Part shown: piece by piece, positions 18,890 through 35,505 of the stretch
Numbering within the stretch: the stretch's first letter is position 1
Layout: every line of letters starts with the position of its first letter
NCBI RefSeq assembly: GCF_900002575.1
Contig: NZ_LN650648.1
Location: 2,085,565-2,149,564, forward strand
Reading direction: 5' to 3'
DNA from: Romboutsia hominis
GTDB taxonomy: Bacteria; Bacillota; Clostridia; Peptostreptococcales; Peptostreptococcaceae
Length of the DNA: 64,000 nucleotides
The notes under the pieces: model-generated
Seen by the model: only the letters and a program-made list of their open reading frames with translations
Told to the model about the DNA's origin: nothing
Databases searched by the model: none
Made by a program: the position numbers and the translations under genes

Positions 18890-19684
18890 CTATCCCCTCA
18901 TCCTATAATTAAGCTTCTTTCCTCTAATCTCACAAATATAATCACCACACATCTCAACAATCCTACTACCAATAGCCTCATCAATATCTATAAGCTCACT
19001 AACTTTCTTTTCACAACTAACAATAACAGGCAAATTATTAAAATATCTATGATTTACAATCTCAAAAATAATATTAACATCACTATGGCTTATCCTACCC
19101 TTAAACAAATCATCAATCAAAAGGACTCTAGCATTTTTATACCTATTCATAACATTGTTATAATAAACTTCATCCATAATATTTTGCTTAAGCCTAGTTA
19201 TAACATCCCTATAACCCATATACACAACACCAACACCACTATCCATAAGCTCATTACAAATAGCAAGACTTAAGTGAGTCTTACCAGAGCCTACTTGTCC
19301 TAAAAACATAATAGAATTTCCTCTATCATTTTCAATTTCATTAAAAAACTTTACATAATCACTAGCCTTTTTATAAGCATCCATTAGAATCATATCTACT
19401 GAGTAGTCAAAGTTATCAAATCTTTTATTTCTAAACTTTTCACTTATTCCACTCTTTTTTAAAATATCTTCAGCTTCTCTAACTTTTCTACAACTACAAG
19501 GAATTGCTACACCATCATTTATAATAAAAGTCATATCTCTACACTTATAACATCTATATTCTTTTAAGTTCTTCTCTAAACTTTCTAAGTTGTTCTTCAC
19601 TTGGCTTTTTATAAAGTACTCCATCCTCTTTTTCATATTTTGTGGTACATTTAAATTTTTTAAACTCATTTTTATACTTTCCAT
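18890..19684 (-). CDS. Phage DnaC/IstB-like helicase loader ATPase
   Basis: An AAA+ ATPase that would load the replicative helicase on phage DNA. The N-terminus has a zinc-finger-like cluster (YRCYKC, then IPCSCRK). FLGQVGSGKTHLSLAI is Walker A, ARVLLIDDLF Walker B, and IVSCEKKVSELID sensor 1. It overlaps the upstream replication gene by about 130 bp. Three early starts are possible; the ATG at 19684 follows AGGGGTGG and is preferred. It is the last gene of the phage-type early operon. The IS21 helper IstB is excluded because no transposase gene is present. Confidence 0.82.
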   Translation of the reverse strand: MESIKMSLKNLNVPQNMKKRMEYFIKSQVKNNLESLEKNLKEYRCYKCRDMTFIINDGVAIPCSCRKVREAEDILKKSGISEKFRNKRFDNFDYSVDMILMDAYKKASDYVKFFNEIENDRGNSIMFLGQVGSGKTHLSLAICNELMDSGVGVVYMGYRDVITRLKQNIMDEVYYNNVMNRYKNARVLLIDDLFKGRISHSDVNIIFEIVNHRYFNNLPVIVSCEKKVSELIDIDEAIGSRIVEMCGDYICEIRGKKLNYRMRG

Positions 19685-20237
19685 CACTACCACCCCTATT
19701 TATCTCATCATCTCTATATTTTTCTTTTTCTTTTTGTTTTTCTTTTTGTTTTTCTTTTTCCCCATACCCATACTCAAAGTTATTTTCTACTTTAGTTATG
19801 GGTATAGATACACTATCCATAGTGGTAATATTTTTATTTTTTATGTCTATAGCGTATCCATACCTATGACATTCTTTTAAAAATAAATTTATAAGGTCAA
19901 TGCTTTTAATATCTAAAAGTTCTTTTTCTACGCATTTTTTAACCTTTGGACTTACCACCTTGTTGTGCTTAAGCCAATTCTTAATAAAAATCTCCTTACT
20001 TTCCTCACTATAAATAATTTTTCCATAGTCCTCAAATCTTTTAAGAAGCTTTTCTACTGTTTCTCTGTTGTATCCTGTTTCTGTTTCTATAATCCTTTTA
20101 GGTAATTCATATATTCCACATTGGCTAGTCTTGCTATTTGTCATAAGGTAAATATAAAAATATTTCTCCTCTGGTGTTAAATCAAGTACAAAACCATCTT
20201 GCCAATAATCTATGTGTATATGCCTATAAACTGCCAT
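19554..20237 (-). CDS. Phage replication initiation-type winged-helix protein
   Basis: A 227-residue protein starting AVYRHIHIDYWQDGFVLDLT, then EEKYFYIYLMTNSKTSQCGI and IIETETGYNRETVEKLLKRF, the helix-turn-helix layout of phage replisome organisers related to the DnaD N-terminal domain. A Lys/Glu/Gln low-complexity linker at about 160-172 (EKEKQKEKQKEKEK) precedes a basic tail. It sits directly before the helicase loader, as in many Firmicutes phages, and binds the origin or loader by analogy. TTAGGGGG precedes the start. Confidence 0.75.
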   Translation of the reverse strand: MAVYRHIHIDYWQDGFVLDLTPEEKYFYIYLMTNSKTSQCGIYELPKRIIETETGYNRETVEKLLKRFEDYGKIIYSEESKEIFIKNWLKHNKVVSPKVKKCVEKELLDIKSIDLINLFLKECHRYGYAIDIKNKNITTMDSVSIPITKVENNFEYGYGEKEKQKEKQKEKEKYRDDEINRGGSDGKYKNEFKKFKCTTKYEKEDGVLYKKPSEEQLRKFREELKRI

Positions 20238-20284
20238 ATTAATCCCCCTAATTTTAAGCTTTTAAATCCATAATTAATTTTTCC

Positions 20285-21289
20285 TTAAATTCTAAACACT
20301 CTTGATGTAGTAGTTTTCATGTACTTTTTAGCTAAATCAGGATGTTCTTTTTTTAATCTTTTAGAATCTAATATATTTTTACTTTGCTTTTTCCAACTAA
20401 TTTTTCTATCCCCAATATAAGCTATTTCATACTCTTTCATTTGACTTTGTATATATTGTTCTATAGCCTTTTTCTCACTATCTAACTCTTTTATAAGACC
20501 TACTACATCATCATATCTATTTAAGTAATTTTCCTTTTCAAATAGTATTATCTCTTCTTCTTTGCTTTCTTTATAAAGATTTTTAAGTACCTTTGAATAA
20601 TCATCACTTCCATCTGGTATTGGGATATTATCTCCTAGTACACACTTTTCCCAAAACATTTTCTCTAACTTCATAATATCTTCTATTATTTCTTCATCTC
20701 TATCAATCTTATGAATAACCAAATCTTCATTACCTATAAGTGCTGCTACATAACAATGAGTAGCTCCTGTAACTGCCATATAATGATAACATTGTACTTT
20801 ATAATTAATTGGCACCCCATTTTTCCATTCTCCTTTAAAGTAGCTTCCACTTACCTTGCACTCTAAAAATGCTTTTTCTCCTACAATAGCTCTATCAATA
20901 TTTGCTATTGCAAATGGATATTTATCATTTTTAAGTATCCCATTAATATTTCTGACTTTCTTATTAGTTTTTAAGGCAAATTCCTTAGCTACAAAATCCT
21001 TTAACTTATTACCTAGCTCTATTTTGTAATTTGTATAAATAGTATCTTCAATATGTTGTGTATTTTTATTTAACATACTATTTATAGTTTTATCATCTAT
21101 ATTGTTTATGTTATTTTTTATATAGTTAAGTTTTTCTAAATATACACTTACAGAGCTTTTGTATGGATTAAGCCCAACTACGCTAGATGCATCACTTCCA
21201 CCTATACCTTTTCCCCTTTCCTTTAACCACTCATATTTACTCATTTTCTTTGTATTATGAGTTATATTAGCCTCTAAAAATTTTCTCAT
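20285..21289 (-). CDS. YqaJ-family viral recombinase nuclease
   Basis: A lambda-exonuclease-like protein of 334 residues. KYEWLKERGKGIGGSDASSV with the GGSDAS motif starts the YqaJ domain; AIANIDRAIVGEKAFLECKV supplies the catalytic Asp and E-x-K residues; YKVQCYHYMAVTGATHCYVA is the next conserved block. The C-terminus (about 255-334) is helical and charged. It makes 3' single strands for phage recombination, normally with a RecT/Erf annealing protein, which is absent here. It lies 47 bases before the replication protein gene. AAGGGGG precedes the start. Confidence 0.85.
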   Translation of the reverse strand: MRKFLEANITHNTKKMSKYEWLKERGKGIGGSDASSVVGLNPYKSSVSVYLEKLNYIKNNINNIDDKTINSMLNKNTQHIEDTIYTNYKIELGNKLKDFVAKEFALKTNKKVRNINGILKNDKYPFAIANIDRAIVGEKAFLECKVSGSYFKGEWKNGVPINYKVQCYHYMAVTGATHCYVAALIGNEDLVIHKIDRDEEIIEDIMKLEKMFWEKCVLGDNIPIPDGSDDYSKVLKNLYKESKEEEIILFEKENYLNRYDDVVGLIKELDSEKKAIEQYIQSQMKEYEIAYIGDRKISWKKQSKNILDSKRLKKEHPDLAKKYMKTTTSRVFRI

Positions 21290-21359
21290 TAGTTTATCCC
21301 CCTTTATATTTATTTGTAAGTTTTTTCCTAGTAATATATAATACTTCTGAGGTGATTAT

Positions 21360-21617
21360 TTGAAATTAACTGATAAACAGCAATTTATAATATTTTTATT
21401 ACTTGCCATAGGTTTAAGTATATTTGATGCTATATTTTTACCTAATACCAACTTTAGTTCTTATAATTCTCTAATTAGCGTATTTGTTGTAATTATATTA
21501 ATTAGAGTACTTTATAGATTTTTTAAAGATTTTAAATCATTTACAAAAGTAGATATACTAGGATATATAGTTGTTTTTATTATTGGTTTATCTTTATTAT
21601 TTACTGTTAATACTTAA
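21360..21617 (+). CDS. Small three-helix membrane protein
   Basis: An 85-residue protein with hydrophobic segments at about 9-26 (FIIFLLLAIGLSIFDAIF), 37-54 and 65-83. The TTG start is six bases from GAGGTG. It lies on the strand opposite to the phage early genes, between YqaJ and the antirepressor, and has its own terminator. This is a typical place for a cargo (moron) gene expressed from the prophage, possibly for exclusion or host benefit. No family recognised. Confidence 0.6.
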   Translation: MKLTDKQQFIIFLLLAIGLSIFDAIFLPNTNFSSYNSLISVFVVIILIRVLYRFFKDFKSFTKVDILGYIVVFIIGLSLLFTVNT

Positions 21618-21619
21618 GG

Positions 21620-21635
21620 TGGTTAATTTTAACCA
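21620..21635 (+). terminator. Intrinsic terminator after the small membrane protein
   Basis: TGGTTAA with TTAACCA is followed by TTATTTTTTT, directly after the plus-strand stop. Confidence 0.65.
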
Positions 21636-21647
21636 TTATTTTTTTAT

Positions 21648-22454
21648 CTATTTATAAGTTTTTTCTAAAAAATATTTTTGACCTTTTCCAGTTATAAGTG
21701 TTGTTGTTGATATTATTTCACCTTCACTTGTATTTAAAATACTTTCAGATACTTTAAAAAGCCCTCTTTCTATATACACTTGCTTTGGCATGTTCTTTTC
21801 TTTACCACTTTTTATAAGATAACCATTTGCTCTTAACATACTAAATAGTCTATTTCTTCCTATTTTTATGTTATTGTTGTTTAATATTTTAGCAAACTGT
21901 CCTATTGTTATAGCATCTTCACTTGTAGCTATAGTTTTTGCAAAATTTACAAGTGGCTTATCTAGTTCTATAGTTTTTTCAAGCTTTCTAGCCTTTTTCT
22001 CTACTAACATTCTTTGATTTCTTTCTTCCTTTAACTTAGTTACCATTTGTATTATAAAGTCTGGATTTTCTAAAGCTTTTTCAATAACATCTTCATTCAT
22101 ATAAGCTCCATTTTTTCTAATAGAAGGTATTACTTCTTCCATTATCCACTTTTCAAATCTTTTTGCACTAGGTAGTTTTGACCTAATAATTAATCTATAC
22201 ACATTACTTTCATCTATAAATTTCTTTCTAACAAATTGTATTATTTCACTTTTATTATCTCTAAAACCAGTAACTACCCCCACGTCGGAAAAAATTACCC
22301 CCTCTTTTTTACAATGTCTTATTATTGCATCTCTAGGATTTACATATCCTAATATCTTAGCTATTCCTATAGCCTCTATATATTCCTTGTTATTTACTAC
22401 TATTACATTTATTTCTCCAAATTCCTTATTAAAAAATACCTTTAAATCTCTCAT
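21648..22454 (-). CDS. Phage antirepressor (BRO-N plus KilA-C type)
   Basis: A 268-residue DNA-binding regulator. Residues 1-105 are a BRO-N domain (EIINVI-like start, IEAIGIAKILGYVNPRDAII, RLIIRSKLPSAKRFEKWIME). The C-terminal part (ATSEDAITIGQFAKILNNNN, GRNRLFSMLRANGYLI) is the phage antirepressor KilA-C/ANT domain. Such proteins counteract the lysogeny repressor or sense host state. It is second in the minus-strand early operon after the Cro-like gene. AAAGGGGA precedes the start. Confidence 0.88.
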   Translation of the reverse strand: MRDLKVFFNKEFGEINVIVVNNKEYIEAIGIAKILGYVNPRDAIIRHCKKEGVIFSDVGVVTGFRDNKSEIIQFVRKKFIDESNVYRLIIRSKLPSAKRFEKWIMEEVIPSIRKNGAYMNEDVIEKALENPDFIIQMVTKLKEERNQRMLVEKKARKLEKTIELDKPLVNFAKTIATSEDAITIGQFAKILNNNNIKIGRNRLFSMLRANGYLIKSGKEKNMPKQVYIERGLFKVSESILNTSEGEIISTTTLITGKGQKYFLEKTYK

Positions 22455-22507
22455 ATAAATCCCCTTTGTATATATTTATTATCATTTTTTATAATTTAGC
22501 TATTTTT

Positions 22508-22523
22508 ATTACCTTTTGGTAAT
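22508..22523. promoter_or_regulatory. Operator-like palindrome in the lysogeny region
   Basis: The palindrome ATTACC-TTTT-GGTAAT lies between the antirepressor and Cro-like genes. It lacks the T run of a terminator on the minus strand. The 13 bases before and including TTACC (TATTTTTATTACC) recur exactly at 22921-22933. Confidence 0.45.
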
Positions 22524-22548
22524 ATAATAAGTAAAAATTTTTGTATAA

Positions 22549-22764
22549 CTAATTCTCAATATCTAAATTTAAAAATATCTCATTTACTTCTTTAATATTA
22601 AGATTTAATACCTTACTTATTTTTACTACTTCCTCTAATGAAAAATCTACCCTTCCATTTTCTTTAAGATTATAAGTTTTTGTATTCATCCCCATCATAT
22701 TTGCTACTTTAACTTGTGTTAATCCAAATAATGCCCTTTTTGATTTAAGTATTCTAAGTCCCAT
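22549..22764 (-). CDS. Cro-like XRE-family regulator
   Basis: A 71-residue helix-turn-helix protein (SKRALFGLTQVKVANMMGMN, TKTYNLKENGRVDFSLEEVV). It is the first gene of the minus-strand early operon and divergent from the CI-like gene, the classical Cro position. It would bind operators in the 250-bp divergent region. AGGGGAG precedes the ATG. Confidence 0.82.
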   Translation of the reverse strand: MGLRILKSKRALFGLTQVKVANMMGMNTKTYNLKENGRVDFSLEEVVKISKVLNLNIKEVNEIFLNLDIEN

Positions 22765-22863
22765 TATTTTACTCCCCTATCTCTATTTTATTTTTTTATG
22801 ATAAATATTTTTTTGCTCCTTTGTAACTAAATATTACATCCATATTTTGTAAGTGTCAATTAG

Positions 22864-22933
22864 TTTTTGGTAATTTTATTATACAAATTATCATTTTTTT
22901 AGTAATTTGTATATTTTGTATATTTTTATTACC
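22864..22933. promoter_or_regulatory. Candidate lysogeny-switch operators
   Basis: GGTAAT at 22869-22874 and ATTACC at 22928-22933 are opposite-facing half-sites in the divergent cro/cI region; the second sits in TATTTTTATTACC, identical to the arm of the palindrome at 22508. They would overlap the two divergent promoters. Confidence 0.4.
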
Positions 22934-23026
22934 GTATGTACATTTTTATTTCCTTTTTAATAACACTGTGATATTATTAAAATATAACTAAATAATGTTA
23001 ATTTTAACCAAAGGAGCGTGAAGAAT

Positions 23027-23428
23027 TTGGAGACTATTGCACAGAGAATTTCTAGAGCTAGACGTTATTTAAATTTAAATCAAAAAGAATTAGCAAAAAG
23101 AGCAAATATAACAGAAGCTAGTTTATCTAGATATGAAAATGGATTAAGAGAACCAAAATCTGCCGTACTTTCAAGACTTGCTGATGCACTTGAAGTGTCT
23201 ACTGACTACTTACTAGGCCTTACTGATGAAAGAACTTATGATGAATGTGATATAACTAAAAAAAGTGAAAAAGATATTAAAAACATATTAGAAAATGCTG
23301 AAGAAATGTTAAAGCAAGATGGATTAATGTTTTGTGGTAAGCCAGCTTCTAAAGAAGCCATAGATGGGGTTTTACAAGCTATTAAAATGGGGATGCTTTT
23401 AGCTATAGACAAAGAAAAGAATAAATAG
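23027..23428 (+). CDS. CI-like XRE-family lysogeny repressor
   Basis: A 133-residue repressor with a textbook N-terminal helix-turn-helix (RRYLNLNQKELAKRANITEA, SLSRYENGLREPKSAVLSRL, ALEVSTDYLLGLTDE). The C-terminal part is short and helical, without a LexA-type peptidase domain, so induction probably depends on the ImmA protease encoded next. The upstream GTG at 23018 lies one base from AAGGAG; the TTG at 23027 is ten bases away and is preferred, though this is not certain. Divergent from the Cro-like gene. Confidence 0.85.
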   Translation: METIAQRISRARRYLNLNQKELAKRANITEASLSRYENGLREPKSAVLSRLADALEVSTDYLLGLTDERTYDECDITKKSEKDIKNILENAEEMLKQDGLMFCGKPASKEAIDGVLQAIKMGMLLAIDKEKNK

Positions 23429-23447
23429 TAATAACTTTTAATTTTTT

Positions 23448-23507
23448 GAGCGAAGCGATTTTTGAGCAACGGACGAAGTCGTTGGCGACATGAGCAAAGC
23501 GATTTTT
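23448..23507 (+). repeat. Dispersed repeat family 1, copy 1
   Basis: A direct repeat (GAGCGAAGCGATTTTT and GAGCAAAGCGATTTTT) flanks a hairpin-forming core, GAGCAACGGACGAAGTCG plus TTGGCGACAT. The core and one arm recur in inverse orientation at 30926-30971 with about four differences. GC content is above the surroundings. It lies between the CI-like and immA genes. Confidence 0.8.
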
Positions 23508-23525
23508 ATGAAGGGGAGATTAATT

Positions 23526-24038
23526 TTGAATTTAAAATATATAAAAGAAAAAGTGAGAATTCTAAAGAAGTATTATCCAGGATATAGTGCATTAGAATTA
23601 CTTCATCAATTTAAAGTTGTTACTTCTTGTTTTGATGATATTTTGGGGACTGACTTACCTGAGGGGTGTTATTTTAAGATTGGTAATACAAAGTATGTAC
23701 TTATAGACCCTAATCTTTCTGATGAAGATAAAAAAAGAGTTTATACTCATGAACTTGGACATGTACTACTTCATCCAGATATAAATACTTTAGAGGTTGA
23801 AAAATATGATCCGATTCTTTATGAAAAACTTGAAAAGGAAGCTGATACTTTTGTAGCTGAGTTTTTATTAGATGATGATGTCTTTATGAAATACTTTACT
23901 GGTTGTAATTATAAAATAGCAAATCATGAAAAAATACCTGTTAGGTATGTTAATATCAAAGTAAATAATTTAGATAAATCTGTTAAAAAACACTATGAAC
24001 AACTTTTTGCTACAAATTCTCACTATGTTTCATATTAA
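23526..24038 (+). CDS. ImmA/IrrE-family metallopeptidase
   Basis: A 170-residue cytoplasmic zinc protease. YTHELGHVLLHPD at 74-86 contains the HExxH motif (75-79), and EKEADTFVAEFLL the third ligand Glu. In ICEBs1 and related phages ImmA cleaves the XRE repressor encoded beside it to induce the element; the same pairing is seen here. The frame is open upstream to 23490 through the repeat, but the TTG at 23526 is seven bases from AAGGGGAG and gives a normal N-terminus, MNLKYIKEKVRILKKYYPGY. A terminator follows. Confidence 0.88.
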   Translation: MNLKYIKEKVRILKKYYPGYSALELLHQFKVVTSCFDDILGTDLPEGCYFKIGNTKYVLIDPNLSDEDKKRVYTHELGHVLLHPDINTLEVEKYDPILYEKLEKEADTFVAEFLLDDDVFMKYFTGCNYKIANHEKIPVRYVNIKVNNLDKSVKKHYEQLFATNSHYVSY

Positions 24039-24152: not shown

Positions 24153-24764
24153 TTAAATTTGACCCTCTTCAATTAACTGAGAATGTGTATTATCTATCAT
24201 AATTTTTATTTTACCTCTATACATAAGTTTAAATATGCCCCACGCTATAATCCCACCTAATGTATTTAATATTAAATCTTCAACATGAACAACTCTTGTA
24301 TATGTAAGTCCAAATATATTCATAACTAACTGAGTTAACTCTATTGATAATGATATTAAAAAAGTTATCTTAGTAGCGGATTTTAAATCTCTTGATTTTT
24401 CACTTTTTGCACATATATACAGTATAAATGGCATTAATAAAATTAAATTTCCAACTATATTTCTTATTATACTTCCAAGGTAATTTGCACCTTTAAAATA
24501 ATCTATAAATGGAACTATGTTTATATTACACCTTTCTATAAAGCTTAATTCCTGTAAATATGGAGACATTTCACCTATAGTTATAGGTAAAATAGTTATT
24601 CCTATAAGTAAAAATAAATATATAACAAATAGATTAGTTAAAATTTCATCCCCAATGTTAAATTTAATCCCCTTTTTCTTTCTGTTCATTAAGATTATTA
24701 TTCTTGCAATTATCCATATTGGTAATCCAAAAATAAATAATCCACGCAGTTCAAATGAATACAT
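24153..24764 (-). CDS. VanZ-family membrane protein
   Basis: A 203-residue protein with about five membrane helices. Family marks are NINIVPFIDYF, NIVGNLILLMPFILYI, SLSIELTQLVMNIFG and VVHVEDLILNTLGGIIAWGI. VanZ of Tn1546 gives low-level teicoplanin resistance; chromosomal relatives are common in clostridia and mostly uncharacterised. It stands alone next to the phage module, with AAGGGGAG before its start. No vanA/B-type genes are near, so a resistance role is not implied. Confidence 0.82.
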   Translation of the reverse strand: MYSFELRGLFIFGLPIWIIARIIILMNRKKKGIKFNIGDEILTNLFVIYLFLLIGITILPITIGEMSPYLQELSFIERCNINIVPFIDYFKGANYLGSIIRNIVGNLILLMPFILYICAKSEKSRDLKSATKITFLISLSIELTQLVMNIFGLTYTRVVHVEDLILNTLGGIIAWGIFKLMYRGKIKIMIDNTHSQLIEEGQI

Positions 24765-25095: not shown

Positions 25096-25222
25096 ATAAC
25101 TCCCCCCCCCTTTATTTAATTATAGCAATTGTTACAGGTAATATATAACAATAAAATAGAAGCAAATGCTCCTATCTTATAAAATAATAGTATCTATTTA
25201 AATTTATATAATAAATAAAATA

Positions 25223-31070: not shown

Positions 31071-31096
31071 TCCAATAGGATAAACCTATTGGATTT
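31068..31096. terminator. Bidirectional intrinsic terminator at the scpB end
   Basis: AAATCCAATAGG pairs with CCTATTGGATTT around a 5-base loop; T runs lie on both sides. It overlaps the scpB stop codon. Confidence 0.85.
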
Positions 31097-31615
31097 CTTT
31101 TTCTTCATTTAATGGTGGTAAATCATCTAAGCTTTCTATGCTTAGTAATTTTAAAAACTCATCAGTAGTTTTATATATTATAGGTTTCCCTATTTTTTCT
31201 AACCTTCCAGCTTCTTTTATAAGTTCATTTTCAAGTAAAACAGATATTGCTCTATCACATTTTACTCCTCTTATATTTTCTACTTCAACCTTTGTTATAG
31301 GTTGTTTGTAGGCTATTATAGTTAGTGTTTCAAGAGTTGCCTGACTTAGTGTTTTCTTTTTTTTGGTTCTAATAATTTTTTTATAAATCCTGCATACTCT
31401 TTGTTAGTAGTCATTTGGTATTTATTTTCTAATTTTATTATTTGTATACCTCTATTGTTTTCCTTATACTCTTCTATTAAAGAGTTTAACATTAACTCTA
31501 TCTCTTTGCTTGATAGCTCTTCATTTATTATACTATTTAGCTCACCAATACTTATAGGTTCTGAGTAAGCAAACATTATAGCTTCTATAATATTTTTAAT
31601 ATCTTCACGTCTCAT
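31086..31615 (-). pseudogene. scpB: Segregation and condensation protein ScpB, interrupted by a frameshift
   Basis: ScpB binds ScpA and Smc to form the chromosome condensin. Its first half (REDIKNIIEAIMFAYSEPIS ... YAGFIKKLLEPKKRKH) stops at 31346. Moving to the -1 frame inside an A8 tract at 31357-31364 gives the rest of the protein: KTLSQATLETLTIIAYKQPI, TKVEVENIRGVKCDRAISVL, then EKIGKPIIYKTTDEFLKLL, up to the TAG at 31086-31088, total about 176 residues, a normal length. Everything outside the tract is intact. The cause may be a sequencing error in the homopolymer, a real mutation, or slippage that restores the product. Confidence 0.85.
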
Positions 31616-31619
31616 TTTA

Positions 31620-32342
31620 TCACTCCGAGCTTTTCTTTATTATTATGTCATCAAAGAATAAGTCTTGTTCTACTATTACTTCTTTTCCTTTTATCATTTC
31701 TAATATAGATAAAAATGTTGCTATAACTTCATCTTTATCACAAGACTCTATTATCTTTGTAAATCTTACTTCTTTTTCTACTTCTATTATACTTCTTATA
31801 AAAGATATCTTTTCTTCAACAGGTATTATTCTACCTCTTACTATTTTGTCTAATCTTTTATCTTCTACTTTTTCATCTTCAACAGATTTTACTTTAAGTA
31901 TTAAAGGAAGTATATTTTTTATAGCCTCTATAGATATATCTTCTAATTCTACTTTTTCATCTGTTATTATTTCTTCTTTTTTTCTAAAGAATAATTCATC
32001 TATATAAGTTATGTTATCTTTTATAGAATCTGTTGCTAGCTTGAACTTTTTATATTCTTCTAATTGTTCTACTAATTCAAGTCTAGGGTCAACACTTTCT
32101 TCATCTTCTTTTTGTTTATATAATAAATACTTAGATTTTATTTGAAGTAACTTAGATGCCATTGTTATAAATTCACTAGTTACCTCTAAGTCCATTTTCT
32201 CTAGCATTTTTATATAATTTATGTATTGTTTTGTTATTTCTATTATTGATATGTCCTTTATATCTATCTTTTGCTTAGATATCATATCATATAATAAATC
32301 TAGTGGTCCATCATAAACCTGTAAATGTATATTATACTTCAT
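31620..32342 (-). CDS. scpA: Segregation and condensation protein ScpA
   Basis: A 240-residue kleisin subunit. YNIHLQVYDGPLDLLYDMIS is the invariant N-terminus that contacts Smc; ISIIEITKQYINYIKMLEKM and TSEFITMASKLLQIKSKYLL follow. The C-terminal winged helix ends EVIVEQDLFFDDIIIKK. scpB starts four bases later, so translation is coupled. AGAGGTAA precedes the start. It follows the M50 protease gene by 15 bases. Confidence 0.95.
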   Translation of the reverse strand: MKYNIHLQVYDGPLDLLYDMISKQKIDIKDISIIEITKQYINYIKMLEKMDLEVTSEFITMASKLLQIKSKYLLYKQKEDEESVDPRLELVEQLEEYKKFKLATDSIKDNITYIDELFFRKKEEIITDEKVELEDISIEAIKNILPLILKVKSVEDEKVEDKRLDKIVRGRIIPVEEKISFIRSIIEVEKEVRFTKIIESCDKDEVIATFLSILEMIKGKEVIVEQDLFFDDIIIKKSSE

Positions 32343-33105: not shown

Positions 33106-33545
33106 TTATTTATAATGTGGTGTAAGTGGTGTTAATACTTCACAACCATCTTCAGTAACTAATATCATATCTTTTATATTAAATCCACCAAATCCAGATA
33201 TATAACATGGTGTTTCTATACAAAGTATCATACTAGCTTCTAGTTTTCTTTTTTCGATTAATGATATAAATGGTGTCTCCACCGTTTGAGGTCCCATACT
33301 TATACTATGTTCTAAATGACCTCTTTCATAGAACTTATACTTTTCCTTTACATAATTAAATCCTATTGAGAATAATTCATTAAAACCAAGTACTGGCTTA
33401 ACTAAATCTATCATAAGCCTTTGAGCTTTAACTATCCAACTTCTAGATAAATCTGTTGTATAAAAGTTAGTGTCTCCATTTACCCCCCGTCGAATTTAAC
33501 TACGCTCCATTTTTTATTATCCTGTCGGTTGAATGACAAAATAAA
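33106..33545 (-). pseudogene. Degenerate C-terminal copy of the M24 aminopeptidase gene
   Basis: This region is a partial duplicate of 34308-34800. The last 102 codons (GFNELFSIGFNYVKEKYKFY to VLTPLTPHYK) remain open and differ from the intact gene at about a dozen residues, including GHLGHS to GHLEHS and EVGM to EASM next to metal-binding positions. Further upstream a 45-bp in-frame deletion, a C7 to C6 frameshift and scattered changes break it, and similarity ends near 33545. No start with a ribosome binding site remains. It is best read as a remnant of a duplication that placed the coat genes between the copies. Confidence 0.88.
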
Positions 33546-34307: not shown

Positions 34308-35483
34308 TTATTTATAATGTGGTGTAAGTGGTGTTAATACTTCACAACCATCTTCTGTAACTAATATCATATCTTCTATATTAAATCCACCAAATCCAGA
34401 TATATAACATGGTGTTTCTATACAAAGTATCATACCAACTTCTAGCTTTCTTTTTTCGCTTAATGATATAAATGGTGCCTCTGCCGTTTGAGGTCCCATA
34501 CTTATACTATGTCCTAGATGACCTCTTTCATAGAACTTATACTTTTCTTTTACATAATTAAATCCTATTGAGAATAATTCATCAAAACCAAGTCCTGGTT
34601 TAACTGAATCTATCATAAGCCTTTGAGCTTCAACTAATCTTTGCTTTAACTCACTAAGTACTGGGTGAGCATCTCCAACTATCCAACTTCTAGAAAAATC
34701 TGTTGTATAAAAGTTAGTGTCTCCATTTACCCCCCCGTCGAATTTTACTACATCTCCATTTTTTATTATCCTATCAGTAGATCGACAAAGTCTTCCTGAA
34801 TTTTCACCTGCACAAAATGATGACCATCCACTTGGGAAGCATATTCCTGATTCCATTACCTTTTTACAGTATATATCAAACAGTTCTCTTTCACTTACTC
34901 CCTCTTTAACAAACTGACTTGTATGTAAAAGTGCCTCATCAGCTACTCTAGCTAACTTTCTAAAGTATTCTATTTCATCATCTTCTTTAACACTTCTAGC
35001 TTCTATAAATAAATTAGAAACATTTACAAAATCCACATTAGGAAGAGCTCTCTTTAAAGAATCAAAATATGTTGCTGATATAAAATCAAGTTCTATACCT
35101 ACTTTTTTATCTTCAAGATTTAATTCTTTTATACTTTCAACTACTACATCTAATGAAGTTACAAAAGTTTTATTAGATACAACTTCTTTATTAGCTAAAA
35201 CTTCTTCAAAAGTTTTTCCCCCAACCCATGTACTATATTTTTTAACTATACAGTCCATATAATCAGAAAATGCTTCACTTTCAAAATCCATTCCTATAGC
35301 TATAGCCCTACTTTCTTCTTTGTTATCTAATACACTTACAGCAAAATGTGCTTGTCTAGATACTGTATGTTGATGTGAAGAATAAGCTGTTATATAAGTA
35401 AAATTTTCCGGAGAGTTTACTATAACTCCATCAATATTATTTTCTCTTAATAATCTCTTTATTTTTTGAACTTTAGGTTTCAT
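34308..35483 (-). CDS. M24-family Xaa-Pro aminopeptidase
   Basis: A 391-residue peptidase with a creatinase-like N-terminal domain (IDGVIVNSPENFTYITAYSS) and the pita-bread catalytic domain: VVKFDGGVNGDTNFYTTDFS supplies the two metal-binding Asp, GHLGHSISMGP the His, and MILCIETPCY and MILVTEDG the two Glu. It removes N-terminal residues before proline or hydrolyses small dipeptides. The ATG at 35483 is nine bases from AGGAG; an earlier GTG is only three bases away. It follows an AbgT transporter gene by 22 bases, suggesting peptide use. Confidence 0.9.
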   Translation of the reverse strand: MKPKVQKIKRLLRENNIDGVIVNSPENFTYITAYSSHQHTVSRQAHFAVSVLDNKEESRAIAIGMDFESEAFSDYMDCIVKKYSTWVGGKTFEEVLANKEVVSNKTFVTSLDVVVESIKELNLEDKKVGIELDFISATYFDSLKRALPNVDFVNVSNLFIEARSVKEDDEIEYFRKLARVADEALLHTSQFVKEGVSERELFDIYCKKVMESGICFPSGWSSFCAGENSGRLCRSTDRIIKNGDVVKFDGGVNGDTNFYTTDFSRSWIVGDAHPVLSELKQRLVEAQRLMIDSVKPGLGFDELFSIGFNYVKEKYKFYERGHLGHSISMGPQTAEAPFISLSEKRKLEVGMILCIETPCYISGFGGFNIEDMILVTEDGCEVLTPLTPHYK

Positions 35484-35505
35484 ATTCACTATCTCCTAAT
35501 TTAAA

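Follow-up and report, generated by a model that had tools for sequence, protein, structure and literature searches.

In Citrobacter rodentium, the conserved gene tssM1 is cut just 3′ of a poly-A run and its remainder lies in another frame; slippage of ~20–25% has been shown on that run of 11 A, and both forms of the protein are needed, as described for that locus (PMC4256274). Frameshifting by −1 on A-rich heptamers is also described in bacteria (PMC3711429, PMC4066793), and a cassette of the A_AAA_AAA type with seven A is given a frameshifting level of 10% in the part of the literature that treats it (PMC3711429). The same source holds that unclustered frame changes validated by BLASTp are expected to be sequencing errors (Antonov et al. 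2013, PMC3711429), and the errors of long-read assemblies are characterized elsewhere as mainly short indels at homopolymers, which fragment genes (PMC12007338). The passages on scpB in PMC4537597, PMC2721850, and PMC3323550 describe no frameshift in this segregation gene.

The scpB gene of Romboutsia hominis is comparable to each of these systems in part. Like tssM1, it is a conserved gene interrupted just 3′ of a poly-A run with the rest in another frame, but its run is A8, and slippage on it is putative. It shares with the A-rich heptamers the phase A_AAA_AAA, whereas the frame change is not conserved and no strong stimulator is seen. The likeness to the gene-fragmenting homopolymer errors discussed in PMC12007338 lies in a one-base deficit at a poly-A run, in a gene that is otherwise intact, and in more such breaks in the same assembly; the breaks are few here, while one draft in that source contained 2900 detected errors.

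The interrupted scpB gene and its surroundings

The window, that is, the whole stretch of DNA that was analyzed, comprises 64 kb and contains the following features of the scpAB locus.

31620–32342, minus strand: scpA, unbroken, matching PF02616 (E 4e-25) and ending 4 bases before the ATG of scpB
31346–31615, minus strand: N-terminal piece of scpB, 89 codons and a TAA stop codon, matching PF04079 positions 2–78 (E 6e-19)
31357–31364, minus strand: A8 tract (CC-A8-G) in the phase A_AAA_AAA_AG, the site of the frame change
31086–31364, minus strand: C-terminal piece of scpB in the −1 frame, 92 codons and a stop codon, matching PF04079 positions 77–160 (E 8e-34)
Predicted peptide of the C-terminal piece: LETLTIIAYKQPITK

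The initial annotation had placed the end of the scpB reading at 31346 after 89 codons, had followed the C terminus of ScpB in the −1 frame beyond the A8 run to 31086, and had described an intact scpA coupled upstream and a slippery phase of the A_AAA_AAA type. All of this was found in the open reading frames and the profile matches, the phase being CCA AAA AAA AGA. Because the matches of the two pieces to SMC_ScpB (PF04079) are consecutive, jointly 2–78 and 77–160 of the 160 profile positions, the pieces represent successive stretches of a single domain family, lying in two frames rather than in a single ORF. ScpB comprises two separate winged-helix domains, one in each half, which serve dimerization and ScpA binding. 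The stop codon of the N-terminal piece comes eight bases after the end of the A8 run, the remaining two frames of the stretch occupied by the C-terminal piece are full of stops, and GGAG stands just upstream of the scpB ATG. In addition to the adjoining scpA, this genome has a full-length, uninterrupted Smc gene. Runs of A or T of exactly 8 occur 11 times in the window and are not rare; what is unusual about this A8 is that the reading frame of a conserved gene breaks at it.

Two ways in which the break could be harmless or bypassed were rejected. A search at E 0.001 over the whole 3.04-Mb single-contig genome found no second ScpB that could stand in for the broken one. An internal start for the C-terminal half was likewise discarded, since the piece holds no ORF of 20 amino acids or more that begins with ATG, GTG, or TTG.

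ScpB in related genomes

The family set consisted of 71 genomes including this one, which alone represents its genus. ScpB was matched in 70 of the 71, the exception (G079) being 75% complete, and it is full length and unbroken in 69 of the 70 other family genomes; only that of R. hominis is in two pieces. One member (G070) has two further weak partial matches, below the cut-off, beside its full one. In a second set of 60 other family or order genomes, 36 of them in common with the family set, ScpB is unbroken in 59, and a 99% complete relative from the order (G060) has no match. Because it is unique among the genomes searched, the frame change is, as far as these sequences tell, a singleton and not a conserved device. 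The candidate of a conserved recoding site was rejected on the same counts, with 69 of the 70 other family genomes unbroken and the remaining one devoid of a match.

The tract itself was inspected in 56 of 110 relative loci, 9 of which gave no usable row, while the other 47 represent 41 distinct tracts. Many family members have E-P followed mostly by lysine codons at this place. The initial annotation had proposed counting the A residues in related genomes; among the 41 distinct tracts, 7 contain an in-frame A8, 8 is the longest run, and none has nine. In the closest relatives, L020 and L024, AAG codons interrupt the run. These interruptions and the lack of any nine-A tract suggest that the long A run is a derived state of this lineage and that its frame change is a singleton. 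Otherwise the gene is much like the ScpB genes of Peptostreptococcaceae relatives, in which both pieces find consecutive matches and scpA lies directly upstream; the identity to the ScpB of L024, from the genome closest by sequence (G027), is 85.5% for the N-terminal piece and 88.6% for the C-terminal piece. The difference is that the frame is broken here at A8.

Codon comparisons with L024 gave 22 synonymous and 12 amino-acid-changing codons of 83 in the N-terminal half and 34 and 10, respectively, of 87 in the C-terminal half. Against L020, the corresponding numbers were 27 and 12 in the N-terminal half and 34 and 11 in the C-terminal half. By these codon counts, the C-terminal half is constrained as strongly as the N-terminal half, with no sign of relaxation, which points to a lesion that arose very recently, does not exist in the cell, or is bypassed.

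Another sequence from this species was also sought. Among viral contigs, 43 stretches matched the search pattern and none coded for a relative; among genome contigs, none of the best 80 of 555 loci exceeded 84% identity, in a search from which the window's own records were possibly left out.

Poly-A frame breaks and A-run lengths in the assembly

Frame changes were sought with a Viterbi scan under a codon model that permits them. It covered 1.264 Mb of the R. hominis sequence and, in four relatives (G009, G017, G033, and G027), 1.6 Mb in all, and it retained 9 and 5 candidates, respectively. When these were sorted by hand, which was done after the scan and not before, six frame changes at runs of 6–10 A were counted in the 1.264 Mb of this genome and none in the 1.6 Mb of the relatives (p 0.007). 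A looser mechanical rule gave a contrast of 7/9 (p 0.04) and a stricter one 5/5 (p 0.017). Poly-A frame breaks are thus apparently in excess in this assembly compared with the relatives. The six are as follows.

scpB: the break in the window
L127: PP2C phosphatase, +1 direction, both halves matching PP2C_2
L119: methyltransferase, open frame of 232 aa versus 263 aa in its one close relative
L126: N terminus of an AAA-ATPase, weakly supported break
L240: small conserved cysteine-rich protein (named by eye), +1 direction, without a Pfam match, with relatives in 33/40 other family genomes
L162:12566: lipoprotein-like gene (named by eye), without a Pfam match, weakly supported break

The break at L126 is weak because it removes only ~30 N-terminal residues and leaves a frame length within the range of the relatives (1167 aa versus 1130–1206 in five close, complete relatives). 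The open frame of L240 has 87 aa, versus 108–112 aa in its best three relatives. L127 was retained despite start codons in the overlap, since both of its halves match PP2C_2. Four of the six breaks lack a base; L127 and L240 run in the +1 direction and are therefore not simple one-base under-calls. The candidates dropped from this genome were L131, on the opposite strand of ABC-transporter-like genes and antisense by eye; L162:6655, without a run of at least 6; and L242, with a start codon 17 nt past the stop and no family match. Those dropped from the controls were L262 and L269:965, which have A7 and a start codon at the overlap and were taken as ordinary gene overlaps, and L151, L204, and L269:6824, without a run of at least 6.

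Two other loci were recorded in passing. An EF-G/ribosomal-protection-like gene at L162:5993–7980 is split by a frame change with no long A run there, and its pieces, scanned separately, fall under the cut-offs of the resistance models. Matches to a small cysteine-rich protein at G000:C1:1385228–1385461 and 1715108–1715260 contain one in-frame TGA, as do many relatives, and the protein might represent a selenoprotein family.

The distribution of run lengths in the assembly is like that in the relatives, the ratio of A9 to A8 in genes being 11:106 here and 16:175 in the four controls pooled. This similarity indicates that A runs are not under-called in general, and the idea of wholesale under-calling was rejected on this basis. 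Long runs are scarce in the genes: 106 A8 were seen against 204 expected from synonymous codon shuffles, and 11 A9 against 65, a depletion of ~6-fold for the latter. Runs of at least 8 A are depleted in the genes of G009, G017, G033, and G027 as well, and Baranov et al. 2005 (PMC1088944) report that, in many bacteria, selection against A/T runs becomes evident at a length of about nine. The avoidance of A8–A9 in genes fits some cost of slippage, either at replication or at transcription, but outside genes, too, A/T runs become scarcer with length here (75 of length 8, 12 of 9, and none of 10), and the avoidance may therefore in part not reflect slippage in expression.

Origin and possible consequences of the break

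The plain alternative offered by the initial annotation, a homopolymer sequencing error, becomes the best single explanation, and we would put its probability at roughly 0.55. A deficit of a single base relative to the reading frame of the family, occurring once, at a poly-A run and in an otherwise intact and constrained gene, would be a homopolymer under-call that remains in the assembly, while the gene would be whole in the cell and would encode an ordinary ScpB working with ScpA and Smc. If so, the proper annotation of the locus is an intact scpB rather than a pseudogene, and the other poly-A breaks of the assembly should be suspected likewise. Points that weaken this explanation are that A-run lengths in genes resemble those of the relatives, that the six poly-A breaks were sorted only after the scan, that two of them run in the +1 direction and that those at L126 and L162:12566 have weak support; moreover, because A9 is avoided and no tract of a relative exceeds 8 A, the assumed whole scpB would carry a rare tract.

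Another possibility, which we regard as tenable but doubtful, is that one A was really lost very recently in this strain by replication slippage. Most of the product would then be the N-terminal fragment, and some full-length ScpB, perhaps enough of it, may arise through leaky −1 shifting by ribosomes on A_AAA_AAA or through slippage of RNA polymerase. The avoidance of A8–A9 runs in genes would be expected were such runs to slip, the frequency reported for the seven-A cassette points the same way, and the genome has more poly-A breaks, two of them in the +1 direction. Such a loss could also be tolerated in some bacteria, given that scpB was scored as nonessential in Staphylococcus aureus, unlike in Bacillus subtilis, in the data presented in PMC2721850; a literature search on its essentiality in Clostridioides difficile returned nothing relevant. 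Against a recent loss stand the constraint without a trace of relaxation, the thinning of A/T runs outside genes too, and the absence of any positive feature that sets it apart from an under-call. Furthermore, mutS and mutL are uninterrupted in this genome, so there is no evident mutator, and a mutator strain was rejected as the source of the breaks. Together with the excess of poly-A breaks, the intact mutS and mutL favor the under-call over a genuine one-base loss, and the evidence tilts toward residual homopolymer errors without amounting to proof. Should A8 be real, some full-length protein would probably, or at least possibly, be made by slippage, A8 being at the margin of the run length for slippage, and the strain would show, as a natural experiment, how much ScpB is needed and how well A8 slippage can supply it.

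The initial annotation had also considered two products or a full protein made by slippage. Developed into programmed recoding, this would mean that A8 is real and maintained in the genus and that a fixed ratio of N-terminal fragment to full-length ScpB meters the formation of the Smc-ScpAB condensin and so tunes it; if true, a subunit of a bacterial condensin would be controlled by recoding. The correct phase of A_AAA_AAA, the lysine-rich stretch common at this site in the family together with the in-frame A8 of some relatives, a 5-bp hairpin 12 nt past the run, and a downstream region that folds somewhat better than its shuffles (z −1.94; 7/200 shuffles equally good) are in keeping with it. 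Nevertheless, it seems very improbable: comparative support for the proposal is absent, as the frame change occurs in 0/69 other family genomes with ScpB and in no other genome searched; AAG codons break up the run in L020 and L024, the nearest relatives; the near hairpin of only 5 bp is weak and the stronger one begins ~45 nt downstream; and by eye no Shine-Dalgarno-like element lies 10–14 nt upstream. Still less credible is an established pseudogene, in which scpB would be dead in the lineage. The main frame does end at codon 89 with the rest lacking a common start codon, and the nearly complete order relative without a ScpB match shows that loss of ScpB is possible. The lesion is a single one, though, the C-terminal half stays open for 92 codons under the same constraint as the N-terminal half, and scpA and smc are uninterrupted, which make an old pseudogene very unlikely. 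The stops in the downstream half of relatives that the initial annotation had named as the sign of a true pseudogene were not found, the relatives being unbroken, and its interpretation as a whole is in part supported.

Elsewhere in the window, a neighboring M24-type peptidase (34308–35489, by eye) has its C-terminal part duplicated in truncated form at 33106–33414, and the copy differs from it at several residues. A phage-like gene cluster at 18890–24038 includes, by eye, DnaC/DnaD-like, YqaJ-like, Rha-like, XRE repressor, and ImmA/IrrE-like genes. Among the G/C runs of the window, the longest is C9 at 25102–25110 (G9 on the minus strand); it lies upstream of a VanZ-like ORF (24153–24764, minus strand, by eye), at a distance of ~340 bp, and is a possible phase-variable element.
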